A stretch of 64,000 nucleotides of DNA, from assembly GCA_026413885.1 (NCBI GenBank), contig JAOAKA010000001.1, positions 302,762 through 366,761 of the forward strand, given 5' to 3'. Of this stretch, positions 6,934-63,513 are shown one piece after another (position 1 is the first letter of the stretch; each line of letters starts with the position of its first letter). A program made the translations under genes and the position numbers. Below the pieces are notes generated by a model, which was given only the letters and a program-made list of their open reading frames with translations, ran no database searches and was not told the origin of the DNA. Origin of the DNA: Sulfolobales archaeon. GTDB lineage: Archaea > Thermoproteota > Thermoprotei_A > Sulfolobales > NBVN01.

Positions 6934-7048
6934 GCCGCAAGATAGCTGTAAGCCTTAGATAGATTGTAATACGGCAAAAGTAGGTATTCTCATAAGCTGA
7001 ATACTTGGTGTTTTAAAGTAATGTATCTAGCTAGTCGTGGGGATCTGT

Positions 7049-7678
7049 CTGAAAGTTACTTTAGTGTCTTGGAGCTCTCCGGCTCATGCTGACCCTAGAA
7101 GGCTCATCGTATTGGCCGCGAAGACTTCTCAAGGAAAGCTATCACAAGATACTCTATCTTATTATCTGAGGGATTACCCAGAGAAAGATGTGTGTGGATG
7201 GATCTTAGAGTCCGTGAATTTTCCATCAGTTTTAGAACATATTTCATTTACTTTCCTAATTGAGGGTATTTCTAGAGTTACTTCTCACCAACTAGTTAGA
7301 CATAGAATAGCTTCCTATACTCAAGAATCCCAGAGATATATTGAAGTTAAATGCGAATACATAGTTCCGGAATCAGTAAGAACCAGTGGCTTCGAGGAGA
7401 GGTTTAGAGAAGTAGTTGAGAACTCCTTTAAGCTGTATGCCGAAATGGTTAAAGCAGGTGTTCCCATAGAAGACGCTAGATATATTCTATCTCAAGCTGT
7501 TACAACTAAGATACTGATGACTGTAAATTTGAGAGAACTACTGCATATAGCTTGCCTCAGACTCTCAGAGAAAGCTCAGTGGGAAATTAGAGAGTTAGTT
7601 AGAAGAATGGTTGAAGAAGCATCTAAAGTAGTTCCTGAAATTAATGATCTATTGAGAGCTTCGTGTAGTGAAAAGTAA
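7049..7678 (+). CDS. thyX: Flavin-dependent thymidylate synthase
   Basis: ThyX motif RHRIASYTQESQRY; proposed CTG start gives (M)KVTLVSW; ORF track uses GTG at 7037. Confidence 0.92.
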   Translation: MKVTLVSWSSPAHADPRRLIVLAAKTSQGKLSQDTLSYYLRDYPEKDVCGWILESVNFPSVLEHISFTFLIEGISRVTSHQLVRHRIASYTQESQRYIEVKCEYIVPESVRTSGFEERFREVVENSFKLYAEMVKAGVPIEDARYILSQAVTTKILMTVNLRELLHIACLRLSEKAQWEIRELVRRMVEEASKVVPEINDLLRASCSEK

Positions 7679-7719
7679 GTGTTTAATAGCTTTCTAACTC
7701 TCTAAGTGAGGAGGTTGAT

Positions 7720-8667
7720 ATGAATAGCAAGAAGTCTCTTGAAGACTTAGGTCTTTCCTCAACTATTCTCACTAAACTGAAGGAAGCTGGATATAAGACC
7801 TTGGAGTCTCTAGCAGTAGCTAATATAAGTGAATTAGCGAGTATTACCGGGATACCCCTACCTACAGCACACCGGATAGTCTCGAAAGCTCGAGAGCTTC
7901 TCGGTCTAACCCTAAAGACAGCTCTAGACTTGAAGAAAGAGAGAGGTGCTTTACCGAAGATAACTACAGGATCTAAGAGACTAGATGGATTACTTGGGGG
8001 AGGTGTTGAGGTCGGGACTATAACAGAGTTCTTCGGAGAGTACGGCACTGGGAAGACACAGCTCTGCCTGCAGCTATCAGTTAACGTTCAGCTGCCTAGA
8101 GAGCGCGGTGGACTAGAAGCTAGAGCAATATTCATAGATGCTGAAGGTACGTTCAGATGGGAGAGAATTGAGGCGATGGCTAAAGCGGTCGGTCTAGACC
8201 CAGAGAAAGCTATGAGTAGTATATTTTGGGTGAGAGCTATCTCAAGCGATCATCAGATGGCCGTTATCGAGGAAGTAACCGATTTAATACCAAAAGAGAA
8301 TGTGGGAATCATTATCGTGGACTCAGTGACAGGTCACTTTAGAGCTGAATACCCGGGCAGAGAAAACCTAGCCGTTAGACAGCAGAAGCTGAATAGACAC
8401 CTCCACCAGCTAACGAGAATCGCCGATATATATGAAGTAGCGATAGTTGTAACGAATCAAGTAATGGCGAGACCCGATGTATTCTACGGCGACCCAACTC
8501 AAGCAGTCGGTGGGCACGTTCTAGCACATGCGCCCGGTGTGAGGGTGCAGTTGAGGAAGTCCAGAGGTAATAGAAGGATAGCCAGAGTAGTTGACGCACC
8601 ACATCTACCAGAGGGAGAAGCTGTTTTCGCGATTACTGAAGAAGGCATTAAAGACATAGAAGAGTAG
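7720..8667 (+). CDS. radA: DNA repair and recombination protein RadA
   Basis: N-terminal HhH, Walker [43 protein letters not shown]. Confidence 0.97.
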
Positions 8668-8674
8668 AAGTAAA

Positions 8675-9409
8675 TTGTTCGACAGCGTCTTTGAGAACCC
8701 GGCTATACTAGCTATAGTATTTACATTCATATACACATCATATAGAGATTTAGTTAGCAGAGAGATTCCGGAGCTGAGTTGGGTGCCAGCATACTTAGTT
8801 GTATTAATTGATTTCGTAGTTAGACGCCTCAACGAGTTCTCTCTAATAAATACTGCCGTAGCTATGACACCATCGCTAATCTACGGCCTACTCTTCGCTC
8901 TAGGGATGATTGGTGGAGCAGATTTTCTAGCAATTCTCTTAGTCTCTCTGGGACATCTAAGTGAGCCGCTGATTCCTTTACTAGTATTTATTTTGTCGTC
9001 TATGGCTCCTCTACCAATTGCCTTTATCAACCTCCTCAGGAATTTAACAATAGATAGAAAAGCTATAGAGAGTATTAACTGTGTTAAAGGTGGTAAAAAA
9101 ATACTGTACCTCGTAGGTAGATTGATTACCGTAGCTGAATTCTTGAGGAAGAAGTTCGCTTTCCTCCACACTTATCCAGAGGAAGAAGGATTCATATGTA
9201 TTGGCTCTACAAACGTCAATATAGACTTTGAAGAACAGAAAAAGAGCTTAGAGAGAGCTCTATCCAGAGGCTTGGTCAAGTCAGATGATTACGTAGTTTA
9301 TTCACCAGCTCTCCCACATATAGTATTTATAGCTGCGTCGTATCTGATCACTCTGCTAGCAGCATTCTATGTAAGAGAACTCTCTATATTTCTAGGGAAA
9401 CAGCTTTAG
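8675..9409 (+). CDS. A24-family prepilin/preflagellin peptidase
   Basis: N-terminal TSYRDLVSREIP aspartate motif and GGADFLAI motif in a membrane protein. Confidence 0.8.
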   Translation: MFDSVFENPAILAIVFTFIYTSYRDLVSREIPELSWVPAYLVVLIDFVVRRLNEFSLINTAVAMTPSLIYGLLFALGMIGGADFLAILLVSLGHLSEPLIPLLVFILSSMAPLPIAFINLLRNLTIDRKAIESINCVKGGKKILYLVGRLITVAEFLRKKFAFLHTYPEEEGFICIGSTNVNIDFEEQKKSLERALSRGLVKSDDYVVYSPALPHIVFIAASYLITLLAAFYVRELSIFLGKQL

Positions 9410-9488
9410 AGTCAAACACTTCACAATAACTTTTTGAAGACTCTATCATAGCTATTATAGCTTTAACTAAACTACTATGGGTAAATAG

Positions 9489-9974
9489 ATGAAGATATTG
9501 TGGGCTCCATGGAGAATGAGCTATATAAAGAAGGCTTCTGAAATATCTGAGTGCCTCTTCTGTAAAGCATATAGTTCTAAAAGTGACGAGAACTACCTAA
9601 TTCTAATGCGTACACAGCATAGTCTAGTAATGCTGAACGCATATCCCTACAATACTGCGCACGTGATGATTGCCCCCAGAAGACATATTTCGAGAGTAGA
9701 GCTACTAAACGATTACGAAGTTCTAGACTTATTTAATTTAACTAGAGCAGTAATGAAGGCAGTAGATGAAGAATATAGACCAGAAGGCTACAATATAGGG
9801 TTGAATATTGGAAGAACTGCTGGTGCCGGTATAGAAGCTCATCTACATATACACATAGTTCCGAGATGGTCGGGAGACACGAACTTCATGCCTGTAATAG
9901 CATCGACTAAAGTCATACCTGAAGACCTGAAGGTAACTTTGGCTAGATTGAAGGCGAGGTTAGACTACAAATAG
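9489..9974 (+). CDS. HIT-family protein
   Basis: CLFCKA, NAYPYNTAHVMIAPRRH and HLHIHIVPRW (HxHxH) motifs. Confidence 0.93.
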   Translation: MKILWAPWRMSYIKKASEISECLFCKAYSSKSDENYLILMRTQHSLVMLNAYPYNTAHVMIAPRRHISRVELLNDYEVLDLFNLTRAVMKAVDEEYRPEGYNIGLNIGRTAGAGIEAHLHIHIVPRWSGDTNFMPVIASTKVIPEDLKVTLARLKARLDYK

Positions 9975-10028
9975 ACTATACGGCAACTATTATCTATCTA
10001 CGTATATTTAACAGAGTATGTAGAGGCA

Positions 10029-10694
10029 TTGGAGGTGAACACTGTAACAGCTAGATTCTCTATATTTGTGCTGAATCCGAGGCTGTTTCTAGATTTGGTA
10101 TCTATACTTAGAAGACATAGAATTAAGTTCAGAGTCCCAATGAATTTAGATGAACTATGTCTTGACAGTGAGCTACTAGTTGTAGACACAGAAGGTTTAA
10201 ACTACATCAACAAGAGTAAGATATCTGCAGACATCTGTCGTGAAGTTATTATAGTAAGTAGCTCCGACGAAGTGCACAACGCTATATTGAGTAGAGTTTT
10301 CGAGAGCTGCAGTCCTATCTCCATCGGGATAGATCTAGGAAAAAGAATAGCTTACGCTGTACTAGCCGGCGGACATCTTCTTTTCTACGACTACGTAGAT
10401 AGTTTAAGAAGTGTTTTGGAAGTAGTTGAGAGATTAAATACTGCTAAAACTAGGGTAGTCCTAGTAGGTATAGGTGCTGAATACCTCAGAGACATGCCCG
10501 ACGAAGTATATGACCTAGTAGAGAATGAAAAAGTGACTGCAGTGTATATAGTTGAAGAAGAAAACACTAACAGAGCATTTCTCCCCAAGTTATTTGATGA
10601 AGATATCGAAAACCTACCGGAAGATCTTAGAGCAGCTATCGTGATAGCCATTAAGGTATATGAAAAACACTTACTAGCACAAGGTAAACTCTGA
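10029..10694 (+). CDS. Hypothetical protein with possible RNase H-fold-like segment
   Basis: 221-aa ORF; ISIGIDLGKRIAYAVLAGG segment; start ambiguous. Confidence 0.6.
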   Translation: MEVNTVTARFSIFVLNPRLFLDLVSILRRHRIKFRVPMNLDELCLDSELLVVDTEGLNYINKSKISADICREVIIVSSSDEVHNAILSRVFESCSPISIGIDLGKRIAYAVLAGGHLLFYDYVDSLRSVLEVVERLNTAKTRVVLVGIGAEYLRDMPDEVYDLVENEKVTAVYIVEEENTNRAFLPKLFDEDIENLPEDLRAAIVIAIKVYEKHLLAQGKL

Positions 10695-10918
10695 GTCGGC
10701 TAGCATTAATTCATAGATAATCAGGTAACTGAGATATTCTAGTCGGAGTATGTTCTAGAGCTAGAGCGATTCTCTGTAATTCCAGGGGTTTCTTTATTAC
10801 TATCTCCATAGCGATTACTGTGATACATTAAGTGATTACCTTATTTTGTAGCTTTACATGTATACTTTACTAGAAGCAGACTTCCAAGTAAATTTTACTT
10901 ATCGAGTTCCGCGGAATT

Positions 10919-12148
10919 TTATTTAGTAATTACCTTGACTTCCTTAGACATCTGGCTTACTATTTGCTCTAGGATGGTTTTAGATATTTCCCCATCTGGT
11001 AATTCAAATACTAATTCTACTAATGCGTAACCTGGAGGTATTTCCAGACCTGTTCTCTCATGTCTTATTTCTAGTATATTACATCTATGTCTGGCTAACA
11101 CCTCAAGAACTCTATACAAAGAGCCGGGTACGTCTTCTAAAAGGAGAGAGAGCTTCATAATGCGTCTCTCGATACTAAGTCCCTTCAGTATCACTCTGTA
11201 TATAGTTGTGAGGTCTGCGTTACCCCCACTCACTACAGCTACGAGATTCCTACCTTCACCTACTAGATACCCGCTTAATATAGCTGCTAATGGTAGTGCT
11301 CCAGCACCTTCAGCCACTAACTTTACTCTCTCCATAAGCAGAAACATAGCTCGAGCTATAGAGTCTTCGTCAACTAAGACCACGTCATCGACAACCTCAC
11401 TCATCAATTTGTAGGTCAGCTCACCAACAGACTTCGTTACTACTCCATCAGCTAAACTCGGTGCGACAGGTATCGGTTCTGGTTTCCCATGTATCCGAGC
11501 TTGATATAGCTTAGATGCGTTCTTCGGTTCTACAGCTACTACTTTAGCTCTACTACCGAGAATCTTCTTGATAGCTATAGCTATACCCGATATAAGCCCA
11601 CCACCGCCAACAGGAACTAGAACGTAGTCTACGTTTTTTAAGCTAGTCGCAATCTCAATTCCAATAGTACCCTGGCCGGCTATTACATAGGGGTCGTCAA
11701 ACGGGTGAATAAAGATGGCACCAGTTTCTCTAGATATCTCAATAGCTTTCTCGTAGGATTCATCGTATATGCGGCCGTACAGCACGACTTTCGCTCCATA
11801 GGACTTAGTAGCATTAATCTTGTAAGGGGGAGTCGTTTCCGGCATTACTATAGTTGATGCGACACCTAATTCAGAAGCTGAGTAAGCAACACCTTGAGCG
11901 TGATTACCTGAAGATGCTGTTACAACACCGCATTTTCTACATCTTTCTAACTCTGAGTATATCTTGAAGTAGGCACCTCTAACTTTAAAGGCCCCTGTCT
12001 TCTGAAGATTCTCGAGTTTTAAGAAGACATTGTTACCTGAGACCTTCGAGAAAAACGTTGAGTGAACTAATGGTGTGCGGTGAACAACTCCTTCAATAAC
12101 TTCGTTAGCATGTCTAATTAGACTCCAGATTTCATCTATAGTGCTCAC
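10919..12148 (-). CDS. ilvA: Threonine ammonia-lyase with C-terminal ACT domain
   Basis: PLP motif KLENLQKTGAFKVRGA, SSGNHAQGVA, PVGGGGLISG, C-terminal ACT-like region. Confidence 0.93.
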   Translation of the reverse strand: MSTIDEIWSLIRHANEVIEGVVHRTPLVHSTFFSKVSGNNVFLKLENLQKTGAFKVRGAYFKIYSELERCRKCGVVTASSGNHAQGVAYSASELGVASTIVMPETTPPYKINATKSYGAKVVLYGRIYDESYEKAIEISRETGAIFIHPFDDPYVIAGQGTIGIEIATSLKNVDYVLVPVGGGGLISGIAIAIKKILGSRAKVVAVEPKNASKLYQARIHGKPEPIPVAPSLADGVVTKSVGELTYKLMSEVVDDVVLVDEDSIARAMFLLMERVKLVAEGAGALPLAAILSGYLVGEGRNLVAVVSGGNADLTTIYRVILKGLSIERRIMKLSLLLEDVPGSLYRVLEVLARHRCNILEIRHERTGLEIPPGYALVELVFELPDGEISKTILEQIVSQMSKEVKVITK

Positions 12149-12211
12149 AGCTCTACACCATTTATTTCTCAGAGTTTATAACTTAATAGATAACGTAGTA
12201 TTAGATAGTGA

Positions 12212-26733: not shown

Positions 26734-27474
26734 CTAAGCTATTCTATCGACCTTAGTTTTTCCGTATCTCGAGATTAACTCAACTAATCTCTCAATATCA
26801 TTTGCATAGATGCGGAATAGAACTTCAACTCCTCCCTCATTTTTCGCAAAATCTACGAATTTTCGCATTGGGTAAACTTTCACTGAATACCCTTGAATTG
26901 GAAACTTTGCTGTGAATCCAGGTTTACCGATAATACCAGTATTATAGATTTCAGCACTCCTTAAGACATTAACGTACCTCTTAACTAATCTACGGCTAGC
27001 AGTCTGTATCGTGAAAGACACTGCTACTGGTACTTCGTAGAGAGTTAGTAGCCTTAGCAACTGCCCATAAATGCCGTCGCTTGCTGAGAAATACGGCTGA
27101 ATGATATTTGGATATATGACGAAGAACCACATCATTATTATCGCCATAGAGAATAGGGAGACACCAGACGCTTTGAGAAGAGGCTTTAACTCCTTAACTA
27201 ACTCTACGTCCTTAGACTGAAGTTCAGCTACTTCTTCCTGCTTTATTACTAAGATTCTCTTACCGGATGCTATGTCCTTAGCGTCACTACCTAGTCTCTG
27301 GTGTCTCATAGTGGTCATCGCAAATACGGACATGAACACCACAAAGTATAGTGTCATAATAATTCCGTGATATTCTGACGGTACGAAGAGATTCATAACC
27401 ACAAAGAGAGCTATTACTCCCTGACTGATCGCCAGCGAACGTATTAAAGCCTTCTTCGTTAGATAATACGACAG
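26734..27474 (-). CDS. DUF106/EMC3-TMCO1-like (Oxa1 superfamily) membrane protein
   Basis: DUF106-like TM and coiled-coil pattern; extended N-terminus LSYYLTKKALIRSLAISQGVIALFVVMNLF from proposed CTG at 27472-27474 after AGGAGGTG. Confidence 0.75.
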   Translation of the reverse strand: MSYYLTKKALIRSLAISQGVIALFVVMNLFVPSEYHGIIMTLYFVVFMSVFAMTTMRHQRLGSDAKDIASGKRILVIKQEEVAELQSKDVELVKELKPLLKASGVSLFSMAIIMMWFFVIYPNIIQPYFSASDGIYGQLLRLLTLYEVPVAVSFTIQTASRRLVKRYVNVLRSAEIYNTGIIGKPGFTAKFPIQGYSVKVYPMRKFVDFAKNEGGVEVLFRIYANDIERLVELISRYGKTKVDRIA

Positions 27475-27565
27475 TCCGCAACACCTCCTACAATATCGAG
27501 ATACACAGCAATTTAAACCAAGATAGGTAGAGCTTTAAAGAAACACTAATCTAGAGAATCAATAG

Positions 27566-27941: not shown

Positions 27942-28712
27942 CTATATTGGATATGAATGTGCCCTCTTCCACGGGTCCCCGTAGATACCGAGTCCAACCC
28001 TAATAGAGTGTGTAACTCTATGCTTCACTAGACCTAGGGATTTGAGAAGATCTAAAGCTGCATCGTAGTGAGGTTTTACTCTAGATTTTCTAATGCCTTC
28101 AACTATCTCCTCCGCATTAAGGTCTTTAATTTCTACTAGAGTGTAAGCAGAACCTACTAGCTCGGGTATATGAGCATCACTTCCCGCAGTCTTACAGTCT
28201 TTGAAACTAGCTGTGTGTATTGTGTAGAGATTAGTCACTGTATCTGAAGAGGAATTGTATACTTCTACACAGTTCAAATGCTTTAACTCGAACAACCTAC
28301 CGCAACCCTCTCTAGATACAGCAAACGGATGAACAGCTACTGTAACACAATTCTCTCTAGCCGCTAGCTCTAATAGCGAGGAGAGTTTTATGTATTCTAA
28401 TCCCCTATTTCTCAACTTAAGTTCTAGTGCTGAATCTATAGGTAAACTACCACATAGCACTAGTATATCACCGTGTTCTGTTCTAAATTCGGCACCTGGT
28501 ACAAGAACCACTCCTTCTTCAAATCCCTTCTTTAAAGCGACATAGGATCCGAGAAAGGTATTGTGATCCGTTATCGAAATTGCGGATAACCCTTTTCGTT
28601 TAGCTAATCTAACTATATCTCGAGGATCCATTTCCCCATCGCTTACATAACTATGGACGTGTAAGTCAGCTTTGATCCAGCTTATTGTAGACCCCTCTAA
28701 CGTATCTCTCAT
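27942..28712 (-). CDS. PHP-domain metal-dependent phosphoesterase
   Basis: ADLHVHSYVSDGEMDP, SITDHNT, GAEFRTEHGDIL and AGSDAHIPE motifs; alternative ATA start at 28685. Confidence 0.9.
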   Translation of the reverse strand: MRDTLEGSTISWIKADLHVHSYVSDGEMDPRDIVRLAKRKGLSAISITDHNTFLGSYVALKKGFEEGVVLVPGAEFRTEHGDILVLCGSLPIDSALELKLRNRGLEYIKLSSLLELAARENCVTVAVHPFAVSREGCGRLFELKHLNCVEVYNSSSDTVTNLYTIHTASFKDCKTAGSDAHIPELVGSAYTLVEIKDLNAEEIVEGIRKSRVKPHYDAALDLLKSLGLVKHRVTHSIRVGLGIYGDPWKRAHSYPI

Positions 28713-30081
28713 ACCATTCGACCGCTAATCTAAGGACTCCGACCGCCTCCTCTGGAGACTTAAAGTACGGTATCTTGAGTTCTTTCTCCATAGTCTTCGC
28801 ATACTTTACCGTATATTCACCCCCAGGAGCTATTAAAGCAATGGGCTTCACCGCTCGATTACATACGTCTCTCATTAACTCAACGAATTTAAGTGGGTCG
28901 AAAGCCGGTGACTGCATTAAGGTAATAACTAACACTAAATCAACACCTCCGTCACTAAGAACTACGTCTACGACTGCTCTATATCTCTCTGGGGGTGCGT
29001 CTCCTAAGATATCGATCGGATTGTTTGAAGATGCTGCTGGTGGGAGAATCTTTCTAAGACTTTCGAGAGTCTCAGCTGAAAGAGTTGCTAGCTTCATCCC
29101 TCCACGCTCGACTTCATCTGCTGCTAAAACACCCATCCCACCGCCGTTAGTTACTATAGCAACTCTTCTACCTCTCGGAGTTCCAAGCCACTCCAATACC
29201 TTCAGTAATCCAACTAGTTCGCTAAGACTGTTAACTACGACGGCTCCAGCCTGTCTTACAGCTGATATAAAGACTTCCGAACTAGCTGTTAAAGCTCCAG
29301 TGTGTGATGCAGCTGCTCTAACTCCAGATTGTGTTCTACCTCCTTTGAGCACTATGACAGGTTTACCAACTGCTAGAGTCTTTCTTAAACTGCTCACGAA
29401 TTTCCTTCCATCTTCAACTCCCTCTATGTATAGAGCTACTATTCTAGTTTGAGGATCCTCTGCTAAATACTCTATGAGTTCCCATTCCTTAATATCCGCT
29501 GCATTTCCATAGCTTACAAACTTACTCATTCCAATTCCTATTTCAGCAAGCCAATCTAGTATAGCAGCCCCCAGAGCTCCAGACTGAGAGAGAAGAGCTA
29601 TTGAACCTGGACCTGGTTTTGACTGTCTATCCCCTGGATTGAATATCGTGTCTACCCCACTCCAAGCGTCATAGATTCCGAGGCAGTTAGGTCCTAGAAT
29701 TCTCATACCACATGATCTAGCACTACCGACCAACTCGGACTCTAGTTTCACACCTTCAGTACCTACTTCTCTAAATCCAGCACTAACTACGATGCAGGCT
29801 TTTACACCTACACTACATAACTCTCTAGCAATCTCCGGAGTACTTCGAGCTGGTGTAGCAATAACAGCTAGGTCGGGCGTCTCCGGTACTTCTACTACAG
29901 ACCTATAACACTTTAAGCCAAACACAGCCTCGTACTTCCAGTTTACTGGATATACTTTACCCCTAAATGTTTTAAGAAGATTCTCAACTATTGCTCTACC
30001 GACACTACCAGGTCTCTCTGAAGCTCCGACTACGACTATCGAGCGAGGTTTAAACAGGAATTCTAGGCTTGAGTGTTTCAG
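28666..30081 (-). CDS. ADP-forming acyl-CoA synthetase (acetate-CoA ligase) alpha subunit
   Basis: FKPRSIVVVGASERPGSVGRAI, GPNCLGIYD, SQSGALGAAILDW, ASHTGALT; proposed CTG start (track GTG at 30090). Confidence 0.92.
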   Translation of the reverse strand: MKHSSLEFLFKPRSIVVVGASERPGSVGRAIVENLLKTFRGKVYPVNWKYEAVFGLKCYRSVVEVPETPDLAVIATPARSTPEIARELCSVGVKACIVVSAGFREVGTEGVKLESELVGSARSCGMRILGPNCLGIYDAWSGVDTIFNPGDRQSKPGPGSIALLSQSGALGAAILDWLAEIGIGMSKFVSYGNAADIKEWELIEYLAEDPQTRIVALYIEGVEDGRKFVSSLRKTLAVGKPVIVLKGGRTQSGVRAAASHTGALTASSEVFISAVRQAGAVVVNSLSELVGLLKVLEWLGTPRGRRVAIVTNGGGMGVLAADEVERGGMKLATLSAETLESLRKILPPAASSNNPIDILGDAPPERYRAVVDVVLSDGGVDLVLVITLMQSPAFDPLKFVELMRDVCNRAVKPIALIAPGGEYTVKYAKTMEKELKIPYFKSPEEAVGVLRLAVEWYERYVRGVYNKLDQS

Positions 30082-30169
30082 CTTCGACACCTCTGAAACT
30101 ACGAGCTACCTCAAATAACTGAAGCACACAGAAAGCTTTTATGAGGGTTGCAGAGCAATTTAAGAAGCT

Positions 30170-30910: not shown

Positions 30911-31092
30911 CTCAATACTTGAGCTAGCCCTTAAAAATCTCAGCCTACACAGCCGACAAGATTTAAATGTAGTACTCTGTGTGTTTCTTCAAGGTCTTAC
31001 TTAAGATGTATGTAGTATGTATAGCACGCGCTATTAATGTATAGTATGTAACACAGGGTATCTGGTAGCTAAGAGCAGTGGTGGAGGGTTGG

Positions 31093-31183
31093 TAGCGGGG
31101 GGTGGATTTGAACCACCGACCTCGGGGTCTCACAGGTGTTCACCATATGAGCCCCGCGGGCTACCAGGCTACCCCACCCCGCT
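31093..31183 (-). tRNA. Initiator tRNA-Met (CAT) with about 17-nt intron; CCA encoded at 31090-31092
   Basis: Acceptor stem AGCGGGG/CCCCGCT (A1-U72), GGTGGTTCAAATCCACC T arm, anticodon loop CTCATA|intron|A; intron 31129-31145. Confidence 0.93.
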
Positions 31184-46858: not shown

Positions 46859-47398
46859 TCAATATGGAACGCTCTTTAACTTCACTAAGTACGCTAGATA
46901 GTTTGCTAGAGGATGTAGCACTAGGGCTATTCCAATGGCTATTACTATCTCAGTTAAACCGAGTTCTACACCTGTGTAGAAATCTATCTTCAGCAGTTTT
47001 ACGAATAGTAGTGATATTAATATAAACGATGTTTGATCTAAAACGGGTAGTAGTGCTCCAGGCTTCATTCCGAGTCTTCTCTTTATGAAGGAGTTCACCA
47101 GATCTCCGATCATTGAACCAACTCCCTGAATAAATCCAGCTATAGCTAGATGAGTGAGAGGGTAATGATAGATAAATAATAGAGCTACCCCAGCTAGAGT
47201 GCCAGCAGAAACACCGGCAAATAAACCCTCCCAGCTCTTGCTGTCACCAAAGATTCTCTTACCGTCTATGAAGTTTCTGCCGAAATCAACCGGGTGAGCG
47301 TTTCTTACGATTTTTCGAACTATTAATGGGAAAGCATTAGCAGTGTAAGATGGTGCTAGTAGTAGCAGTTTATATGTAAGTTCTAGATAGCTACTCAA
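46859..47398 (-). CDS. carS: CDP-archaeol synthase
   Basis: PVDFGRNFIDGKRIFGDSKSWEGLFAG and GSMIGDLVNSFIKRRLGMKPGALLPVLDQ motifs. Confidence 0.95.
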   Translation of the reverse strand: MSSYLELTYKLLLLAPSYTANAFPLIVRKIVRNAHPVDFGRNFIDGKRIFGDSKSWEGLFAGVSAGTLAGVALLFIYHYPLTHLAIAGFIQGVGSMIGDLVNSFIKRRLGMKPGALLPVLDQTSFILISLLFVKLLKIDFYTGVELGLTEIVIAIGIALVLHPLANYLAYLVKLKSVPY

Positions 47399-47990
47399 AC
47401 TCGATACCTCGGTCGGTGATTGAGAACTTTATTCTACGATTTCTAAATTCACTTGGTTTAACTACCTCGATTTCTCTATCGTTTCCCTTTTTCTTGATCT
47501 CGACGATAATATCAGACCAAAAATCAAGTATTTCGTAACCACTAGGAACTACCTCGCCTTCTTCCTCTCTAACTTGAGCAGTAAGTAAGATTCTAGAACC
47601 AAAACTGCTTGCTGTATATGAGAGAATAGCTAGTGATGTGTTGAGTAACTTATTAGCTATAGGTCTCTCAACGACTTCATATCGATAGTGTGTGTTAATG
47701 GAATCTATACATACATTTTTAAACTTACTCAAGGAGTAATCTAGGAACATCTCAATGAGTAGGATAGATAGGTCTTCTAGACTGAAGATTTCTCTGAAAT
47801 AGAACTCTCTACTACATAGAGAATACCTCTCCAGGAGAGGTATCGGTATAGATCCCTCCGTACTCAAGTATAGAGAGGGTTTAGAGCTTTTAGATACGAT
47901 CCAAAGACATAGATTAGTCTTACCAACACCAGCACTACCATATAGTAAACTCACTCTACCTTCAGTAGCTTCAACCAGCCATTTACTCAG
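47391..47990 (-). CDS. RecA-fold ATPase, RadB/KaiC-like
   Basis: VSLLYGSAGVGKTNLCLWIV Walker A; CTG start gives N-terminus SKWLVEATEGRVSLLYG; track GTG start begins at Walker A strand. Confidence 0.75.
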   Translation of the reverse strand: MSKWLVEATEGRVSLLYGSAGVGKTNLCLWIVSKSSKPSLYLSTEGSIPIPLLERYSLCSREFYFREIFSLEDLSILLIEMFLDYSLSKFKNVCIDSINTHYRYEVVERPIANKLLNTSLAILSYTASSFGSRILLTAQVREEEGEVVPSGYEILDFWSDIIVEIKKKGNDREIEVVKPSEFRNRRIKFSITDRGIEFE

Positions 47991-48088
47991 GTGCTACCCT
48001 AGAATAAATCACTATCTACACCTTAATTATTTCAGAATTAGATATCTACATATAAGTACTAGCTATATATAGATAGGCTATGTTATAG

Positions 48089-49495
48089 ATGCGGGTGAGG
48101 ATATCTATGCCGAACGATCTCAGAAGTGCCGCACTAAAAGCTGTTCTTCTGACATCTTTTCTCATAGTTTTCAGTCTCAGTATGTGGAACTGGTACGATA
48201 TAAGTATATTTGAAAACTGGTTCGAAGCCTCTAGATCCACAAGTCTCTATAAGATCTATGAAGTTCCTCTAGCTCTAGGCAACATTAGCTATAGAGTCGT
48301 ATACCCACCTCTCCCACCTCTTATCTACATAGGAACCCGCTGGCTAGTAGATGCAGCTATTAATGCTATAATTGCGATAGGTAGAACCGCACCTACAATC
48401 GGACATGCTTTGCTAACGGCGACTGACTACTTTATTAGAGCAATTATAAAGCTACCTCTCCTAGTATTTACTGTAGCTCTAGCTACACTACTCTGGAAGA
48501 AACTCGGTTCTAGAGCATCTCACTGGGTTATAGCTGGTGTTCCGACACTAGTCACTATAGCTAACTATCAATTCGATCCATTAGTTGCTTTCTCTCTGTA
48601 TCTATCTATAATTGGTTTAGACATACCGCGTATAGGTATAATCTTAAGCTCTATATCTACAGCACTCATAATTTTAACAAAACCTCTAGCAGCTATTTCA
48701 CTTCTCCCTCTAGTATACTACATACATAGAAAAATGGGGAAAAGAGACCTAGTTCGCTATGTAGTTATCACTCTAGCTGTAGTTCTCGCATTCACTCTTC
48801 CGTTCTTTCTAATTAACCCATACGCATTCATATACAATGTATTTCTATTTCACAGTGAGAGAGCACCTCAGTATATCTCAATCTGGAATCTCCCTGTTTT
48901 ACTCTCGAAGAGAAACCCGGAAATTGCGAGAATAGTGAATAGTGTGTGGCTTCCTGTAATGCTAGCTATTCTCGGAGTAGCGTTTCTATCATTAAAGAAA
49001 AAGCTCACATTGGAAAATAGAGATAATGTAGTTCTAGCTACATTAATTCTTCTGCTACTAGTCTTAATCTTCAATAAGGTCGTGAACCCTAATTACCTCT
49101 TGTGGGCATATCCTCTGATAATTCACCTAGCTTACAGCCGTGAACATAAATTAAAGCCTAGAAAGACTCTAATAACGTACAATATAGCTGCAGCACTAGC
49201 AGCTCTCTGGGGAGGTCTCTACATGATGATCCCAGCCTTAGTGAATGATATAGTAGTTATAGAGGAGACAGGTGAGATTATCCCCGCTAGAAACATAATA
49301 TACAGATCTCTCGACACACCTCTAAATGAAACAATAACAAATCTAATTAGCTTAAGTGAAAAATACTACGACTACATCAAGATAGTGGAATCATATACTA
49401 ACCTCCTCGGTGCTTCATTAATAGTCACATACAGCTCAGTCATGCTGACTTTAATATGGAGCCTGATCAGAGAGTGCTCTAAGCCTGAGTCTTAG
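48089..49495 (+). CDS. Polytopic membrane glycosyltransferase-like (GT-C fold)
   Basis: 468-aa multi-TM protein with mannosyltransferase-like features; alternative start ATG 48107. Confidence 0.65.
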   Translation: MRVRISMPNDLRSAALKAVLLTSFLIVFSLSMWNWYDISIFENWFEASRSTSLYKIYEVPLALGNISYRVVYPPLPPLIYIGTRWLVDAAINAIIAIGRTAPTIGHALLTATDYFIRAIIKLPLLVFTVALATLLWKKLGSRASHWVIAGVPTLVTIANYQFDPLVAFSLYLSIIGLDIPRIGIILSSISTALIILTKPLAAISLLPLVYYIHRKMGKRDLVRYVVITLAVVLAFTLPFFLINPYAFIYNVFLFHSERAPQYISIWNLPVLLSKRNPEIARIVNSVWLPVMLAILGVAFLSLKKKLTLENRDNVVLATLILLLLVLIFNKVVNPNYLLWAYPLIIHLAYSREHKLKPRKTLITYNIAAALAALWGGLYMMIPALVNDIVVIEETGEIIPARNIIYRSLDTPLNETITNLISLSEKYYDYIKIVESYTNLLGASLIVTYSSVMLTLIWSLIRECSKPES

Positions 49496-50003
49496 AGAGT
49501 ACTGCAGACTCTACGAAGTCTTTGAAGTAGTTCTTACCTACTTCAAGAACTTTAGATAGTAAAATACATGTATTTCCGGTTGTTGAAGAAATCCGGCAGA
49601 AGCTAGATGAGAGATCGAAGTAGTCTCTAGTAATTACGAGTCTTACGTTGGGCATATTAACGCTATCTCCCTGTATCACTAGGTAAAGAGATCCGGAGGG
49701 GATAGCCTTACTTATAGAGATAGACCTCACGAAAGACTGATATCCATCTAGCGTCTCTAAAATCTCTGGAAAACCGATTTCTCTCAATACGTATAGTAGC
49801 TTATCTTCAACATATATTTCTACAACAGCTGGACTAACTCTTAAATCGAGCAGTAAATCACTATCTAGTTGAATAGCTAGATAAACCGTTGAATTAGAAG
49901 AAGAAAATAGAACTCTAGAACCTGGAGTTCTATCTGAAATCTGCTTAATTATCTCTCTAACATTCTTTAAGTCTATCGGTAGCCCTCTAAATACCTCTCT
50001 CAG
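49479..50003 (-). CDS. Hypothetical protein, 174 aa, proposed CTG start
   Basis: Frame open from a TAG two codons upstream of CTG 50001-50003; no ATG/GTG/TTG for 72 codons; GGTG TAGTCT CTG. Confidence 0.65.
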   Translation of the reverse strand: MREVFRGLPIDLKNVREIIKQISDRTPGSRVLFSSSNSTVYLAIQLDSDLLLDLRVSPAVVEIYVEDKLLYVLREIGFPEILETLDGYQSFVRSISISKAIPSGSLYLVIQGDSVNMPNVRLVITRDYFDLSSSFCRISSTTGNTCILLSKVLEVGKNYFKDFVESAVLSKTQA

Positions 50004-50151
50004 AGACTACACCATCATATATCTTTATACTTACACATCTATAAATACTCGCAGAACACAAGTTTAAGACCTACTTCAGCAGCCGCAACATGCTACCGCC
50101 ATATAGAGACTGCGTTAAACGAGGTCTTACTGTGTGAATAGGTGCTCTCCA

Positions 50152-51079: not shown

Positions 51080-51161
51080 CGAAGAAACATTGATAAGAAA
51101 CTAATTACAGTAAAACATGTACCTTATTAGCTGCCTGAATATCTTCGATATGGTGCTCTCA

Positions 51162-52304
51162 CTGGGTTTCTGCGAGCTATGTGGTAGTAGCTCTAAAACT
51201 ATAAGTAACACTATAGGAGTTTGCGCAAACTGTCTTAGAAGTTGCGGTGAGAAGTCTCTGGAAGTAGCACGTAGAGCTCATAGAGACTATAGAGCAAGTA
51301 TGAAACTACCACTAGCAGTACCTAGGCACGGAGAGACAACGTGTAGAATCTGCATAAATGAGTGTTCTATATCTGAAGGCTCACGCGGATACTGCGGTTT
51401 CTGGACTGTGAAAAACGGGACTCTAAACCCTATCACATCAGACCCTAGCGTAGGCCTCGTCTTCTGGTACTACGATCCCCACCCTACAAACTGTGTTGCT
51501 GGACCACTCTGCCCAGCAAACACATCGAGAGGATATCCACAGTTCACTAAGTCTAAAGGAGTTGAAGTAGGCTATTACAACCTAGCTGTTTTCTATACTG
51601 CGTGCAATCTTAACTGCTTATTCTGCCAGAACTGGGAGCACAAGGCTATTCTAGCTGAAGATAGGTTGAAATCTAGATATAGAAAAACAGTAGGCGAACT
51701 TGTTGAAGAAGCTTTAAATAGGAGAGTTACCTGTGTTTGTTACTTTGGAGGAGATCCAGCACCTCAGATACATCACGCACTAGCAGCTTCTAGAAAAATT
51801 CTCGCCGAGAAGAATTCAGATGATGTAAAGAGGATCTGTTGGGAAACTAACGGACTCGAGAATACAGCAATTATGAAGCAGATGGCGGAACTCAGTCTAG
51901 TTTCCGGCGGTATAGTGAAGATCGATTGGAAAGCTTGGAGTCCGGAAGTCTATGAAGCACTAACTGGTGTAGATGGTCGAAAAGCTATTGAGAGACTTAC
52001 AACTAATGTTAAGCTAGTGTCGAGTCTAGCTAAAGACCGTAGTGAACCCCCACTATTAGTCATAAGCACACTCCTAGTTCCCGGATACGTAGACGAGTAT
52101 GAAGTCGGTAAGATAGCTGAGTTTCTAGCTTCAGTAGATAGTGAAATACCACTCATACTTCTCGCATTCCATCCAGACAATGTATTGCGAGATTTACCAC
52201 CAACGAGTAGAAGACATGTTGAAGCTGCTCAAAGAGAAGTTCTTAGTGCCGGTCTCAAGGAGGTCTACATAGGTAACGTGTGGCTTCTAGGAAACTATTA
52301 CTAG
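51162..52304 (+). CDS. Radical SAM protein (PflA-like archaeal family)
   Basis: CNLNCLFCQNWEHK radical SAM motif, CYFGGDPAPQ; N-terminal CELCG and CANC; proposed CTG start (track 51117). Confidence 0.9.
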   Translation: MGFCELCGSSSKTISNTIGVCANCLRSCGEKSLEVARRAHRDYRASMKLPLAVPRHGETTCRICINECSISEGSRGYCGFWTVKNGTLNPITSDPSVGLVFWYYDPHPTNCVAGPLCPANTSRGYPQFTKSKGVEVGYYNLAVFYTACNLNCLFCQNWEHKAILAEDRLKSRYRKTVGELVEEALNRRVTCVCYFGGDPAPQIHHALAASRKILAEKNSDDVKRICWETNGLENTAIMKQMAELSLVSGGIVKIDWKAWSPEVYEALTGVDGRKAIERLTTNVKLVSSLAKDRSEPPLLVISTLLVPGYVDEYEVGKIAEFLASVDSEIPLILLAFHPDNVLRDLPPTSRRHVEAAQREVLSAGLKEVYIGNVWLLGNYY

Positions 52305-55309: not shown

Positions 55310-55316
55310 AAATCGA

Positions 55317-57647: not shown

Positions 57648-57723
57648 CCTTAATACCCATAATATACTGCACCGGGCACTCGCCTTTATATTTGCTCTTC
57701 AAAATTACACCGGTGTAGAGTGA

Positions 57724-58143
57724 ATGTATGTTCGAGAACCTACTTATGTAGTAAGCTATATGTTTAAGAGAATACTAGTTCCTATCGACGGCTCTTCACA
57801 CAGCATTAAAGCTCTAGATGTCGCTTTAGACTTCGCGAAGAGATACGGCTCAGTAATAACAGCCTTCATAGTAGATGATGGAAATATAGGACCTATAGAA
57901 AAAGTTCGCGAAGTAGTAGAATCGATCTCTAGGAAAGCTGGAGTAAGCATCGAATTCAAGATCGCTAAACTAGACCCGACGACATCTATTTCAACAGCTA
58001 TAGTTGAAGAAGTCTCAAGAGGGGGTTACGACCTCGTTGTCGTATCTGCTAGGGGGAGAACAGTAAATCCAGAATTAATCATAGGGTCAGTTACTCTTTC
58101 GGTAGTTGTAAATGTGCCTGTCTCAGTGTTCGTAGTAAGATAG
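57724..58143 (+). CDS. UspA-family universal stress protein
   Basis: FKRILVPIDGSSHSIKALDVA, GSVTLSVVVNVPVSVFVV; ATG at 57760 is a plausible start. Confidence 0.92.
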   Translation: MYVREPTYVVSYMFKRILVPIDGSSHSIKALDVALDFAKRYGSVITAFIVDDGNIGPIEKVREVVESISRKAGVSIEFKIAKLDPTTSISTAIVEEVSRGGYDLVVVSARGRTVNPELIIGSVTLSVVVNVPVSVFVVR

Positions 58144-58265
58144 CAGAATTGAAAACATGTAAACATATCTCCAGCACTATCGTTTAAACTACACACCGCA
58201 GTGTCTTAGTTAACGCATAGTGAGTAGTAATAAACTTGAGGCTTCAACTATTTGTGGTGTTAGTA

Positions 58266-58985
58266 CTGAAAATATTTCCAGAATACCTGCTATACCTAGC
58301 GAGACCTAATAGAAGTATTTCTAACTTAGTAAAAACACTCTATAAGTGTGGAGAAAACAGTAAAGCTGTGTTCGTAGTTAAACCTTCTGTAGTACCAGTC
58401 TGGCTCTATAGTAGACGAATAGCTAACATCGCTATTCCACCATCATCTATAGTGGTAGACTACAGCGTCTTAGAGACATGTAATATAGAAGAACCCGACT
58501 ACAGAGTTGCTGAAGAAGTTTGGATCGATGGGAAGTCTTTTCCCCTAACTGAAGATATATCTAGAAAAAGAGAAAACTGCCTTCTAGTAGACACTCTTGA
58601 AGAGGTATTCGGTAGCTTAAGTAATAGTGGAAGATGCTACGTAGTCTGTGAATACGAAATGCGCGAACTCCTCAAGATTCTCTTAAACCCTGTTGTTTCC
58701 GATTTGAGTACACTGAGAGAAGTAGATAGAGTAAGAGTGGAAGGCTTCATAAGCACTTTCTGGTCTACACACCCAGTGCTCTACGGTCTTAGATTAGACA
58801 GCAAGATGGATCTCGAAGTAGTAAATATAGATAAGACCCTTCTAAGACACTACGTAAAGACTCTAGCGTTTCTAGATCGCTACGTGCTCCTCTCTGAAGT
58901 TCCTTACTCTAATTCAATACTGTTTACTGGATACAGTAGAGAACTTCTAGAAGCAGCTGTTCGAGCAGTTCTATACTCGTGCTAG
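58266..58985 (+). CDS. Hypothetical protein, proposed CTG start
   Basis: GGTG TTAGTA CTG; long ORF, family unrecognised (track TTG at 58236). Confidence 0.6.
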   Translation: MKIFPEYLLYLARPNRSISNLVKTLYKCGENSKAVFVVKPSVVPVWLYSRRIANIAIPPSSIVVDYSVLETCNIEEPDYRVAEEVWIDGKSFPLTEDISRKRENCLLVDTLEEVFGSLSNSGRCYVVCEYEMRELLKILLNPVVSDLSTLREVDRVRVEGFISTFWSTHPVLYGLRLDSKMDLEVVNIDKTLLRHYVKTLAFLDRYVLLSEVPYSNSILFTGYSRELLEAAVRAVLYSC

Positions 58986-59263
58986 AGAATAGCTACTTCA
59001 GCTCCCGCGAGTTGTCCAGGTATGTTTCTATTGAATACAGCTATGACTACACCATTCTTTCCGGTTCCATGAGCCCTTACTATTTTCCCTAGATATGTGT
59101 TTCCGTAACTATCTACTACCTTCACCTTACGGCCTATGAATGAGTGAATACTTGAGGAGGTTGATAGAATCTTTATGTAGACTTGATCTACATACTGCCT
59201 ACTAGAACCTCTCCTATACCCCAAAACTATCCCTAGAGTCTTTGACTCAGTTGCGCCGCACAC
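58982..59263 (-). CDS. Ribosomal protein eL33 (L35Ae)
   Basis: GIVLGYRRGSSRQYVDQVYIKI...IGRKV...GKIVRAHGTGKNGVVIAVFNRNIPGQLAGAEV; GAGGTG TATACT GTG start. Confidence 0.88.
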   Translation of the reverse strand: MCGATESKTLGIVLGYRRGSSRQYVDQVYIKILSTSSSIHSFIGRKVKVVDSYGNTYLGKIVRAHGTGKNGVVIAVFNRNIPGQLAGAEVAIL

Positions 59264-59430
59264 AGTATACACCTCTAGATATGAAAATCTCGAGAATATA
59301 AAGTTAAACAAAAATCAGCCCTCTGTTTAAAGCTACGAAGATCTGCCGTAGGAGAGATAGCTTCAGGTGTTATACAGTGTTTAAAACTTTGCTATAAAAC
59401 TCTGCTAGTTAATTCACTAAGGGCGTAACA

Positions 59431-60141
59431 TTGAGTGTTATGAAGGTAAAAACCCAGGATGTCCCAGGATATTTATACTATATATCGCTAGCAGAACAGA
59501 GACCTTCCACAGTAGCTCTCCACGCTTTCAATCAAAAACCTGAGGACATCGAACAGTATTCTAAGGAACTCGCTGCTCTAGGAATAGTAGTGCTATCTCC
59601 CCGCTATACAGATGCCAGTGATGGTGTTGCTGTTGCTCTAAGAGCTCTAAAGAAACTTAAAACCTTAAGTAGTGTAGACCAAGAGAGATTAGGACTCTTC
59701 GGGATTTCTCTAGGTGGTACAGTAAGTCTGCTAGCATCTACACAAGAAAAAGTGAGATTTGTTGTAAGTATCGGTGGGTGGGTAGACCTAGCAGATCTCT
59801 GTAGATTTCTCTCTAAGTTCCCTCACGGAAGCTCTCAGAAGTATATAGCAGATCTAGTCAGATCTACCTTAGGAGATCCCGAAGAAAATAGAGAGATCTA
59901 CGAGTTAGCTAGCCCGATAACTTATGCAGATAAAATCTCTGGAAGTGTGTTGCTAATTCATGGCTCAGAAGACTCTATGGTGCCTGTCTCGCAATCAGAA
60001 GCCATGTACAGAAAGCTCAGAGAGTTAGGATACGATGTCGAATATCGAGTGATAGAAGGAGGGGGCCACACTCTACTAGGCAAGGAGAGCTTAGTAATTG
60101 ATATAGTGTCAAAGTTTTTAAAAGCTAGGAATATAGTGTAG
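59431..60141 (+). CDS. Dienelactone hydrolase-like alpha/beta hydrolase
   Basis: GLFGISLGGTVSLL, LLIHGSEDSMVP, EGGGHT. Confidence 0.88.
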   Translation: MSVMKVKTQDVPGYLYYISLAEQRPSTVALHAFNQKPEDIEQYSKELAALGIVVLSPRYTDASDGVAVALRALKKLKTLSSVDQERLGLFGISLGGTVSLLASTQEKVRFVVSIGGWVDLADLCRFLSKFPHGSSQKYIADLVRSTLGDPEENREIYELASPITYADKISGSVLLIHGSEDSMVPVSQSEAMYRKLRELGYDVEYRVIEGGGHTLLGKESLVIDIVSKFLKARNIV

Positions 60142-60217
60142 CTAGCTGAGCCGAGATTAACATTTGTTAAACCCTAGTTTTTAACTGTTCGATGTGTTAA
60201 GATTTTGGGTAATCTAT

Positions 60218-61618
60218 ATGAAACCTCAACTAATTCAAGCAGTATTAATAATATTTGTTGTAGTAGCTGGTTTAGCTGGTTACTTTATTGGTCAATCAGC
60301 TGTTCCTCCGAGAGTTGAGATTACGAGACTTACAACAGTGACTCTTAAAGAGACAGTGACTCTTCCCGGAGCAACTATTACTCAGCCGGGAGTTACAGTA
60401 ACAGTGGTTCAAACCATACCTGTATCACCACCTCCAACTACTCCACCTCGATTCGTAGGCACAGTCAAAGTCGGTGCTCTCTTACCGTTAAACCTACCTA
60501 TAGGACGAATGATGTTAGCTGCGATACAGCTAGCTATTGAGGAAATTAACGCAGCTGGTGGGGTTTTAGACCATAAGGTTGAACTTGTATACTACGATAC
60601 TCAGTGGACTGCTGATAAAGCTGCTGAAGGATATAAGAAGCTAGCTGAAGAGAAAGTTAGAGTGATATTCGGAGTCTTCGGATCGCATGAAGCACTAGCT
60701 ATAATGGACCTCCTCCCGCTATATGAGGTCTTAGTTATAGCTTCAGGCGCTGTTAGTGACGCTATAGATGCTAAGGTACTGGAGAAATATAGTGACTACA
60801 AGTACTGGTTCAGAGCCTATGTTAACGCCACTTCTCAAGCAGCAGCAACTTGGGACTTACTAGCGTACTTCTCGAGGAGATTTAATTGGAATAAGGTCGC
60901 CTGGGTCTACGAGGACCTACCGTGGGTGATCCCCCACGCAATATATGGACAGACAAGATCAGCACAAGAAGGTATTGAAGTTGCGATAGCTATTGGAGTA
61001 CCTATAGATGTGACTTCATTTACCGATATCTTTGCTAAGATATCTGCTTCTAGGGCTCAATACATTACTTGGCAGTTCTCCGGCACTGAAGACTATGTCT
61101 TTGCTAGAGACTACTACTTAGGTCAAGTCCCTCTAATAGCTATAGGTGGTGGTACGTATGCTATGCTCGATATCTTCTACAATCAAACTATGGGTGCTGC
61201 TGAAGGACTTATATGTATCTCCTGGGGCTTCCCAACATCAATCACACCCAAGACCATGGAATTTTACGAAAAATACAAGAAACTCGTAGGTACCGAACCT
61301 ATATTCACTACGTGGTATGCTTACGACTCTGTTTACGTGTGGGCTGAAGCAGTTAGAAAAGCTAGATCGTTCGATACAGATAAAGTGATTAAAGCCTTAG
61401 AGACATCGACTTTTGTTGGAACAGCCGGTATTTATGAATTTACTAGAAGTCATACAGCTAAACTAGCTCCGGAGAGAATATACCCAATATACTTCCAGTG
61501 GCAGAAAGGAAAGAGAGTGGTTGTCTGGCCTTTCAGAGCGGTAGAATATGGAACTAAGCTACTATTTCCAAGCATTGCTGACGGCAAGAGGGTGTGGATA
61601 GAGATCCCGTGGCCGTAG
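60218..61618 (+). CDS. Branched-chain amino-acid-type ABC transporter substrate-binding protein
   Basis: N-terminal TM then Thr/Pro-rich linker, VGALLPLNLPIGRMMLAAIQLAIEEINAAGGV; GGGT AATCTAT ATG start (track 60194). Confidence 0.9.
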   Translation: MKPQLIQAVLIIFVVVAGLAGYFIGQSAVPPRVEITRLTTVTLKETVTLPGATITQPGVTVTVVQTIPVSPPPTTPPRFVGTVKVGALLPLNLPIGRMMLAAIQLAIEEINAAGGVLDHKVELVYYDTQWTADKAAEGYKKLAEEKVRVIFGVFGSHEALAIMDLLPLYEVLVIASGAVSDAIDAKVLEKYSDYKYWFRAYVNATSQAAATWDLLAYFSRRFNWNKVAWVYEDLPWVIPHAIYGQTRSAQEGIEVAIAIGVPIDVTSFTDIFAKISASRAQYITWQFSGTEDYVFARDYYLGQVPLIAIGGGTYAMLDIFYNQTMGAAEGLICISWGFPTSITPKTMEFYEKYKKLVGTEPIFTTWYAYDSVYVWAEAVRKARSFDTDKVIKALETSTFVGTAGIYEFTRSHTAKLAPERIYPIYFQWQKGKRVVVWPFRAVEYGTKLLFPSIADGKRVWIEIPWP

Positions 61619-61628
61619 GGAGGTTGTA

Positions 61629-62483
61629 TTGGAAGAGCTTAAGTACATAACGATTTTCGGCTTTTTTCATTCACTAACATACCTAGTCTTTTCTCTTGGT
61701 TTCTCACTTGTTTTTGGTGTTGCTAGACTACCTAATCTATCTTATGGAGCTCTCTATGTCTTCACGGGTTATGTAACCTACACTCTCCTTAGTCAAATGG
61801 GTCTAGATGTTATTCTAGCGATAGCTGCTTCAATACTACTTACTGCTGCTATAAGTCTCTTAATCGGAGAATTCGCCATCAAACCAGCTATAAAGTTTCC
61901 TGTCAGTGTCTTCATAACTACTATGGCTGTCGCCTATATCTTTGAGGAATACTTTAGGATTCAGATGGGGTTAAGACCGGTGACACTCCCACTCTATCCA
62001 GGAACAACTGTGTTAATTGATGTTCCGGTCAGTAACCACTGGTTTCTCGTCGGAATCATTAGCTCGATCATGATTTTAGCATTGCTTCTATTCCTATTTA
62101 AGACTAACACCGGGAGAGCTGTGAGAGCTGTAGCAGAAAACTGGGAGGAGTCTATGAGGCTCGGAATAAATCCACTAAGAGTTTTAAGAACGACCTTCAT
62201 AATATCAGGGGTTTATGCTGCTCTAACCGGTATTCTACTAACACCACTTAAAGCTTTAACACCGAGCGGTGGATGGACACCTCTCTTTACCGCTTTTGCC
62301 GTAGTCGTTATGGGAGGTATAGGAAATGTCTTAGGAACTGTTGCTGCGTCATTTATCTACGGTTTTACTGAGCAGCTTATAATCTACACACTGGGGGGAG
62401 GTATAGCTAGAGTAGTCCCATTAATTCTAATTGTGTTAGTTCTTATTATCAGACCTCACGGACTCTTTGGTAGAGGTGAGTAA
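61629..62483 (+). CDS. Branched-chain amino-acid ABC permease, LivH-like
   Basis: LivH-like multi-TM protein, VVMGGIGNVLGT; GGGAGGTTGTA TTG start. Confidence 0.92.
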   Translation: MEELKYITIFGFFHSLTYLVFSLGFSLVFGVARLPNLSYGALYVFTGYVTYTLLSQMGLDVILAIAASILLTAAISLLIGEFAIKPAIKFPVSVFITTMAVAYIFEEYFRIQMGLRPVTLPLYPGTTVLIDVPVSNHWFLVGIISSIMILALLLFLFKTNTGRAVRAVAENWEESMRLGINPLRVLRTTFIISGVYAALTGILLTPLKALTPSGGWTPLFTAFAVVVMGGIGNVLGTVAASFIYGFTEQLIIYTLGGGIARVVPLILIVLVLIIRPHGLFGRGE

Positions 62484-62484
62484 G

Positions 62485-63513
62485 CTGGTTTTCGCAAAGC
62501 CTTCAAAAGTGAGTAAAGTAAGGAAGATACTGCCTTTTCTCACAGTTGTTTCTATCTACCTCACGCTACCGGCTATAGGTTTGAGAGGATTCTGGATCGA
62601 TGTCCTAACTAGAGTAAACATCTTTCTATTGATAACACTCTCTCTAGATCTATACTCAGGAACTACATTCTATCTAAATCTCGGAGTGCCATTTACTGTA
62701 GGTGTTTCTGCTTACACTCTAGCTCTTTTAAATAGATACTTAGGAGTTCCGGTTGAATACTCTATCTTGCCGTCGGCTATCACCTCCACAATATTCAGCT
62801 TCACTATCTTTATCCCGAGTTTAAGAGTGAGAGGAGCTTACTTCTCTATATTATCGCTACTTCTACCTATAATCTTAGCTGGATTAGTTACATCACAGCC
62901 TTTTTCTCTATACTTAGGTGGTGAAGGAGGTATTTCCTATTTCCCACTATTCTTTTCATATGCCAGAGCCCTACCGGCTGGAGAAAGAGTGTTCTTTCTT
63001 CAGGCATCGCACTTCTACCTTTCGGCTGCGGTAGCTATAGTTGCCTACATTATCTGCTATAAGATAGCTTACTCAGATTTCGGCTTCATGATGAGGTCTA
63101 TTGGTCAAGATGAGCTTCTAGCAGAAGCTACTGGAATCAATACCTTTAGAGTCAAGCTTATAGGATTCATAGCATCATCTTTTCTTTCAGCTCTAGCTGG
63201 AGCTCTCTACGCTGCAATGAGACCTCCAATAACCGCAGATATATTCGTACCAGCGAATACGTTAGTTCCTCCACTGACAGCAGTGATTTTAGGTGGTATG
63301 GGGACGATAGTGGGTCCAGCTATAGCTAACTACTTAACTTTAATTATTTACGAAATTCTGTGGGGTGTCCTAGGTAGTTGGAGAATTATTCTCTATATGT
63401 GTCTTCTCATAGTGTTAGTTCTATTGAGACCTCAGGGACTTATATACTACCTATATTTAAAGATGAAGCAAGTATTTTCAGTGAGAATCTTTAAACACCT
63501 AGGAGGTGTATAG
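62485..63513 (+). CDS. Branched-chain amino-acid ABC permease, LivM-like
   Basis: LivM-like multi-TM, ILGGMGTIVGP; proposed CTG start one nt after livH stop (track 62467). Confidence 0.92.
   Translation: MVFAKPSKVSKVRKILPFLTVVSIYLTLPAIGLRGFWIDVLTRVNIFLLITLSLDLYSGTTFYLNLGVPFTVGVSAYTLALLNRYLGVPVEYSILPSAITSTIFSFTIFIPSLRVRGAYFSILSLLLPIILAGLVTSQPFSLYLGGEGGISYFPLFFSYARALPAGERVFFLQASHFYLSAAVAIVAYIICYKIAYSDFGFMMRSIGQDELLAEATGINTFRVKLIGFIASSFLSALAGALYAAMRPPITADIFVPANTLVPPLTAVILGGMGTIVGPAIANYLTLIIYEILWGVLGSWRIILYMCLLIVLVLLRPQGLIYYLYLKMKQVFSVRIFKHLGGV

Follow-up and report, generated by a model that had tools for sequence, protein, structure and literature searches.

CTG as a probable fourth start codon behind Shine-Dalgarno motifs in a genus of hot-spring archaea

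In a Sulfolobales genus of hot-spring archaea, labelled g1 here, genes led by Shine-Dalgarno (SD) motifs very probably use CTG routinely, as a fourth start codon accounting for about 5-9% of such starts. The position of these CTGs, the SDs ahead of them, the spacing, the codons replacing them in orthologues and their frequency are established here by genome comparison.

The window, a stretch of 64,000 nt (G000:C11:302762-366761), is part of an assembly of 1.32 Mb in 23 contigs. Seven g1 genomes were available, from G000, which hosts the window, to G006; they include the MAGs "Sulfolobales archaeon SKW88" (G004, ThyX 83% identical to that of G000) and "Thermoproteota archaeon GXS.bins.2.201912" (G001). 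GC content ranges within the genus from 42% (G000) up to 63% (G005), and features common to g1 are therefore not due to base composition.

CTG codons at gene starts in the window

Eight CTGs, four of them on the minus strand (27474, 30081, 47990, 50003), had been marked in the initial annotation as starts located 5-7 nt after GGTG, GGGG or GGGT. All were found at the claimed coordinates and spacings when the sequence was read, and are organized as follows.

SD core GGGG 7039-7042, CTG 7049-7051, CDS to 7678, plus strand: thyX (Thy1, E 3e-55); GGGG-ATCTGT-CTG
SD GGAGGTG 27482-27488, CTG 27474-27472, CDS to 26734, minus strand: DUF2208 membrane protein (PF09973); GGAGGTG-TTGCGGA-CTG
28666..30093, minus strand: acyl-CoA synthetase subunit (CoA-binding/Succ_CoA_lig, Pfam); SD GAGGTG 30093-30088, CTG 30081-30079; GAGGTG-TCGAAG-CTG
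47391..47999, minus strand: KaiC/Rad51-like P-loop protein (PF06745, E 5e-7); SD-like GGGT 47999-47996, CTG 47990-47988; GGGT-AGCAC-CTG
49479..50013, minus strand: hypothetical gene (50003), placed by the orthologue start column; SD GGTG 50013-50010, CTG 50003-50001; GGTG-TAGTCT-CTG
51152..52304, plus strand: radical SAM protein (rSAM, PF04055); SD GGTG 51152-51155, CTG 51162-51164; GGTG-CTCTCA-CTG
58256..58985, plus strand: hypothetical gene (58266), with conserved SD and CTG; SD GGTG 58256-58259, CTG 58266-58268; GGTG-TTAGTA-CTG
62473..63513, plus strand: livM-like permease (PF02653); SD GAGGTG 62473-62478, CTG 62485-62487; GAGGTG-AGTAAG-CTG

The gene at 27474 had been taken for DUF106; this was wrong, the match being to DUF2208 (Pfam PF09973, E 4e-37). 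The remaining domain assignments were upheld.

Start columns were analyzed gene by gene in N-terminus alignments with up to 30 relatives. The interpretation of the CTGs as starts is largely supported by these sequences, as the corresponding codon of orthologues is again CTG or one of the standard starts. The DUF2208 gene has CTG in G000, G001, G003, G004 and G005, TTG in G006 and GTG in G002, and twelve genomes of other genera all feature ATG, GTG or TTG; out of 246 columns, position 1 alone is NTG in 19/19 sequences. Similarly, rSAM starts with CTG in six g1 genomes, with GTG in G002 and elsewhere nearly always with ATG or GTG (ATA in G012), and its start column, NTG in 20/21 sequences, is the top column of the gene. 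At 50003, CTG (G000, G004) is replaced by TTG in G001, G003, G005 and G006, and the start is the sole column fully NTG (6/6). The mean NTG share of internal CTG columns ranges, in the per-gene alignments, from 0.17 to 0.43. CTG is found at the start of the KaiC-like gene in G000, G001, G003, G004 and G005 (TTG in G006), and at the aligned start of thyX in G000 and G004 (TTG in G001, G005 and G006, ATG in G003); for these two genes the signal is limited to g1, because N-termini from other genera align poorly. CTG preceded by an SD is also found in G004 and G005 for both the acyl-CoA synthetase and the 58266 genes, the latter having ATA behind an SD in G007. The livM SD, which overlaps the end of the preceding gene, is identical in G004 together with the CTG; G005 has ATG. 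As a side observation, the rSAM orthologue of G026 carries one in-frame TAG.

Some of these CTGs could be ordinary early leucine codons, the real start being a standard GTG, TTG or ATG located upstream, often the GTG within GGTG. In-frame upstream starts are found in the acyl-CoA synthetase (30090, a GTG falling within the SD), rSAM (51117), 58266 (58236) and livM (62467) genes, and in the same four genes an in-frame GTG lies three codons 5' of the CTG, as the initial annotation had proposed for this spacing. The proposal failed for the 50003 gene, where an in-frame TAG shortly before the CTG intervenes and no ATG, GTG or TTG occurs from the upstream stop to the CTG, as well as for the DUF2208 and KaiC-like genes of G000, which lack any in-frame alternative upstream, the second having a stop two codons 5' of the CTG. 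An in-frame TAG leaves no ATG, GTG or TTG ahead of the CTG in thyX of G004 either. At the sequence level, upstream initiation is already contradicted for three window genes. It is further opposed by the ATG, GTG and TTG codons of relatives, which sit exactly at the CTG position, and by the lack of drift to CTA, CTC, CTT or TTA, which would be expected of a leucine codon; upstream starts are an unlikely explanation.

A start further inside, at the next standard codon, would turn the conserved stretch in between into 5'UTR, and is very unlikely. Downstream ORFs in code table 11 exist at 27402, 47954 and 49787: the nearest GTG is 24 codons inside the DUF2208 gene, the first standard codon of the KaiC-like gene is 12 codons inside, and the 50003 product, 174 aa long from the CTG, corresponds to a 102-aa table-11 ORF. 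Amino-acid conservation, however, reaches the CTG and ends there, and the SD is placed at the CTG, not at the downstream codon.

Genome-scale frequency of CTG starts

Genes were taken as reciprocal matches between stop-to-stop ORFs, so that the start codon was not presupposed. The sample included 464 kb of contig C11 (about 35% of the G000 genome), 60-400 kb from each of four g1 relatives and, as outgroups, 400 kb each of G007, from the same family, and G019, an order-level relative. A pairwise NTG test, a codon-blind count and a start census were carried out on overlapping data, and are mutually non-independent.

Where both G000 and the relative have the SD, 20/24 CTGs of G000 at SD+5-8 are aligned with NTG, vs 631/1602 (39%) of internal CTGs (p=2e-5). 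The same test gave p=3e-6 for G004 and p=8e-8 for G005, and was not significant for G003 (n=9). Lenient start columns drawn from multiple alignments gave many false columns; strict columns were consistent with the pairwise test.

The codon-blind count was made at positions that mark a conservation boundary and have an SD in each of the two genomes. At the SD-dictated position of conserved N-termini, a tabulation outlined along with the initial annotation and made here on the 464 kb and the relatives, CTG (19) ranks fourth after GTG (75), ATG (71) and TTG (30), with GCT (12) next. CTG drops out of the top 22 codons at control spacings. Genus-wide, its spacing profile peaks at 6-7 nt, as do those of ATG, GTG and TTG. 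When independent gene groups are counted, the shift of leucine codons to CTG holds, being 7-fold (CTG to other leucine codons 13:6 vs 41:137, odds 7.2, p=1e-4), and non-CTG leucine codons are below their controls at the SD-dictated position; taken by itself, CTG exceeds its control modestly (13 vs 6.8, p=0.02).

In the census, restricted to NTG codons, CTG accounts for 38/420 (9%) of the orthologue-supported SD-led starts of G000 and four congeners, and for 9/122 in G000 alone, vs 1/75 outside g1 (G007 and G019; p=0.018). At least 5 of the 38 calls look false (an exosome Rrp41 pair, two cases with ATG directly after the CTG and one with ATG directly before it), and a share of 7-8% is therefore fairer than 9%. 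Non-ATG codons make up 59-75% of the sampled starts in g1 vs 22-39% outside. GGTG-type motifs are enriched ahead of ATG, GTG and TTG; SDs preceding CTG are stronger than those preceding ATG as a trend only (p=0.09). The 16S rRNA gene (G000:C11:485518-486158), whose 3' end would carry the putative anti-SD CACCUCC, is cut off at the edge of contig C11, and its match is broken after model position 496.

Chance, the eight CTGs being picks among many SD-like G-rich motifs, or errors of metagenome assembly could have produced the pattern. SD-like 4-mers are common, a frame-free and annotation-free count of trinucleotides behind SD motifs, too noisy, showed no CTG peak, and the group-level excess reaches just p=0.02; in a single-genome ORF-based count, the CTG ratio is only 1.4-fold. 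On the other hand, CTG and SD are kept together in separately assembled genomes of 42-63% GC, and replacement at the CTG position is limited to NTG, which makes chance or misassembly very unlikely. That CTGs recur beyond chance, as first claimed from the window, is borne out by the orthologue NTG, leucine-codon and census comparisons.

Relation to known start codons

Archaeal start codons are listed in a review as AUG, GUG and UUG (PMC7531240). The SD-led GTG and TTG starts of Sulfolobus and Aeropyrum resemble those of g1 in the GGTG-type SD, the spacing, the initiator tRNA and the common use of non-AUG codons; GGTG has been reported by Prodigal in A. pernix (PMC2848648). The difference is in CTG, which is unlisted there and makes up several percent of SD-led conserved-gene starts in g1. 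Ribo-seq of Methanosarcina mazei assigned CTG starts to 5% of newly found small ORFs (PMC11456600). These are unannotated small ORFs of a methanogen, whereas the CTGs of g1 belong to long conserved genes and are kept as starts genus-wide. CTG is a permitted initiator in NCBI code table 11, and bacteria have CTG and ATT starts on rare occasions. In an E. coli N-terminomics search permitting NTG starts, GTG and TTG accounted for 60/60 annotated non-ATG starts (PMC13245402); CTG is exceptional in that set and recurrent in g1. The near-cognate codon regarded as strongest in eukaryotes is CUG (PMC11706245). No report of CTG starts in Crenarchaeota was found in the open literature searched.

CTG is ignored as a start by standard gene finders such as Prodigal (PMC2848648), and several percent of the genes of the clade would therefore receive wrong or truncated N-termini. 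Many annotated protein beginnings in the group are probably wrong. Residues lost under table-11 annotation amount to 72 in the 50003 product and 24 in the DUF2208 protein.

Initiator tRNA and initiation factors

Two components of the initiation machinery have been located.

31090-31183, minus strand: initiator tRNA-Met (CAU) with a 17-nt intron, called by ARAGORN with introns
G000:C11:405089-405310, minus strand: aIF1, with AVGGT and QGNQK at conserved sites

The tRNA has the initiator hallmarks (A1-U72, G/C anticodon stem) and is near-identical in G004 and G005. Among the 43 tRNA genes, of which a part was inspected individually, the initiator found has the ordinary CAU anticodon; a recoding tRNA would not be needed. 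Run without introns, ARAGORN called the same gene Phe(GAA).

We infer from the comparisons above that initiation actually takes place at CTG, and that Met is used. The 30S subunit would be positioned by a GGAGGTGA-type SD located 5-8 nt upstream of the start. The ordinary CAU initiator tRNA could then take any NTG, with a first-position mismatch tolerated as for the common GTG and TTG, and Met would presumably be inserted at CTG. The start-fidelity factor aIF1 may hypothetically have been relaxed in the clade.

In aIF1 of G000 and G004, AVGGT replaces ATGGT and QGNQK replaces QGDHR. In an alignment with yeast eIF1, the changed motif falls on QGDQR, the site of D83, the residue mutated in sui1-1. 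Searched as the pattern ELQGN[QH]K, the motif was found at the aIF1 locus in 5/7 g1 genomes (G000-G004), as well as in G008, G014 and G017; the N residue is common to most of g1 and to genera g3 and g9. The pattern had no match in G006, and aIF1 was not found in the G005 assembly. The correlation with CTG is incomplete because of these two genomes and of the presence of the change in g3 and g9, and the aIF1 change is a candidate only as a possible cause of CTG use.

Loss of aIF1 was rejected as a cause, the factor being found in every g1 genome except G005, and so was loss of KsgA/Dim1, whose gene is present in 31/31 genomes. Weakened eIF1 binding increases near-cognate starts in yeast (PMC5756025), and non-AUG starts are overrepresented among the proteins that increase when KsgA is lost (PMC7897474). 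Yeast Sui- strains and KsgA losses are mutants; g1 is in contrast a natural lineage, in which KsgA is present and a causal role of aIF1 is hypothetical. A lineage with ATG in the minority and CTG in routine use would be a natural setting in which to ask what aIF1, the initiator tRNA and the strength of the SD each contribute to the stringency of archaeal start selection, a question of wider bearing, as the archaeal initiation core is common to eukaryotes.

CTG starts elsewhere and other non-standard starts

CTG starts were also found outside the window. RpoP starts with ATG in G000 and G007, and with CTG behind GGGGGTGA in G005, which has no alternative start. A gene near the ribosomal cluster has GTG in G000, TTG in G003 and CTG in G005, with ATG in other genera, and a HypF-like gene is a further CTG case devoid of any ATG, GTG or TTG option. 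PurQ of G019 (G019:C1:222598, plus strand) has a forced CTG start, and CTG starts are therefore not unique to g1.

A broader reading is conceivable, though rather doubtful: start selection as a whole may be relaxed, strong SDs permitting CTG and, more rarely, ACG (MetRS, a zinc-ribbon protein, perhaps uL15), ATA and even GTA or TTA in essential genes, through drift of aIF1 at the sites of yeast Sui- mutations. In MetRS, ACG is found at the SD-dictated site in G003 and in G004 (TGA-AGT-ACG; G004:C19, about 113.2 kb, minus strand), where it is forced by the stop two codons upstream. The zinc-ribbon protein and uL15 of G000 (G000:C11:150845 and 118948, both minus strand) similarly have ACG at the SD-dictated start, and ATG or GTG in relatives. 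The former lacks standard alternatives; uL15 has in-frame GTGs also two and three codons 5' of the ACG. The individual ACG starts of MetRS and of the zinc-ribbon protein look convincing at the sequence level. By gene group, the excess at SD+5-8 was significant neither for ACG (4 vs 2.3) nor for ATA (8 vs 7.0), and starts of both types therefore remain single cases.

One more gene of the window may have a non-standard start.

10029..10694, plus strand: gene with a strong SD, GGAGGTG, pointing at GTA 10044, identified by SD conservation

The SD and an NTA codon (GTA or TTA) are kept in four genomes, the orthologues being in G001, G004 and G005, and two of these sequences have no upstream alternative.
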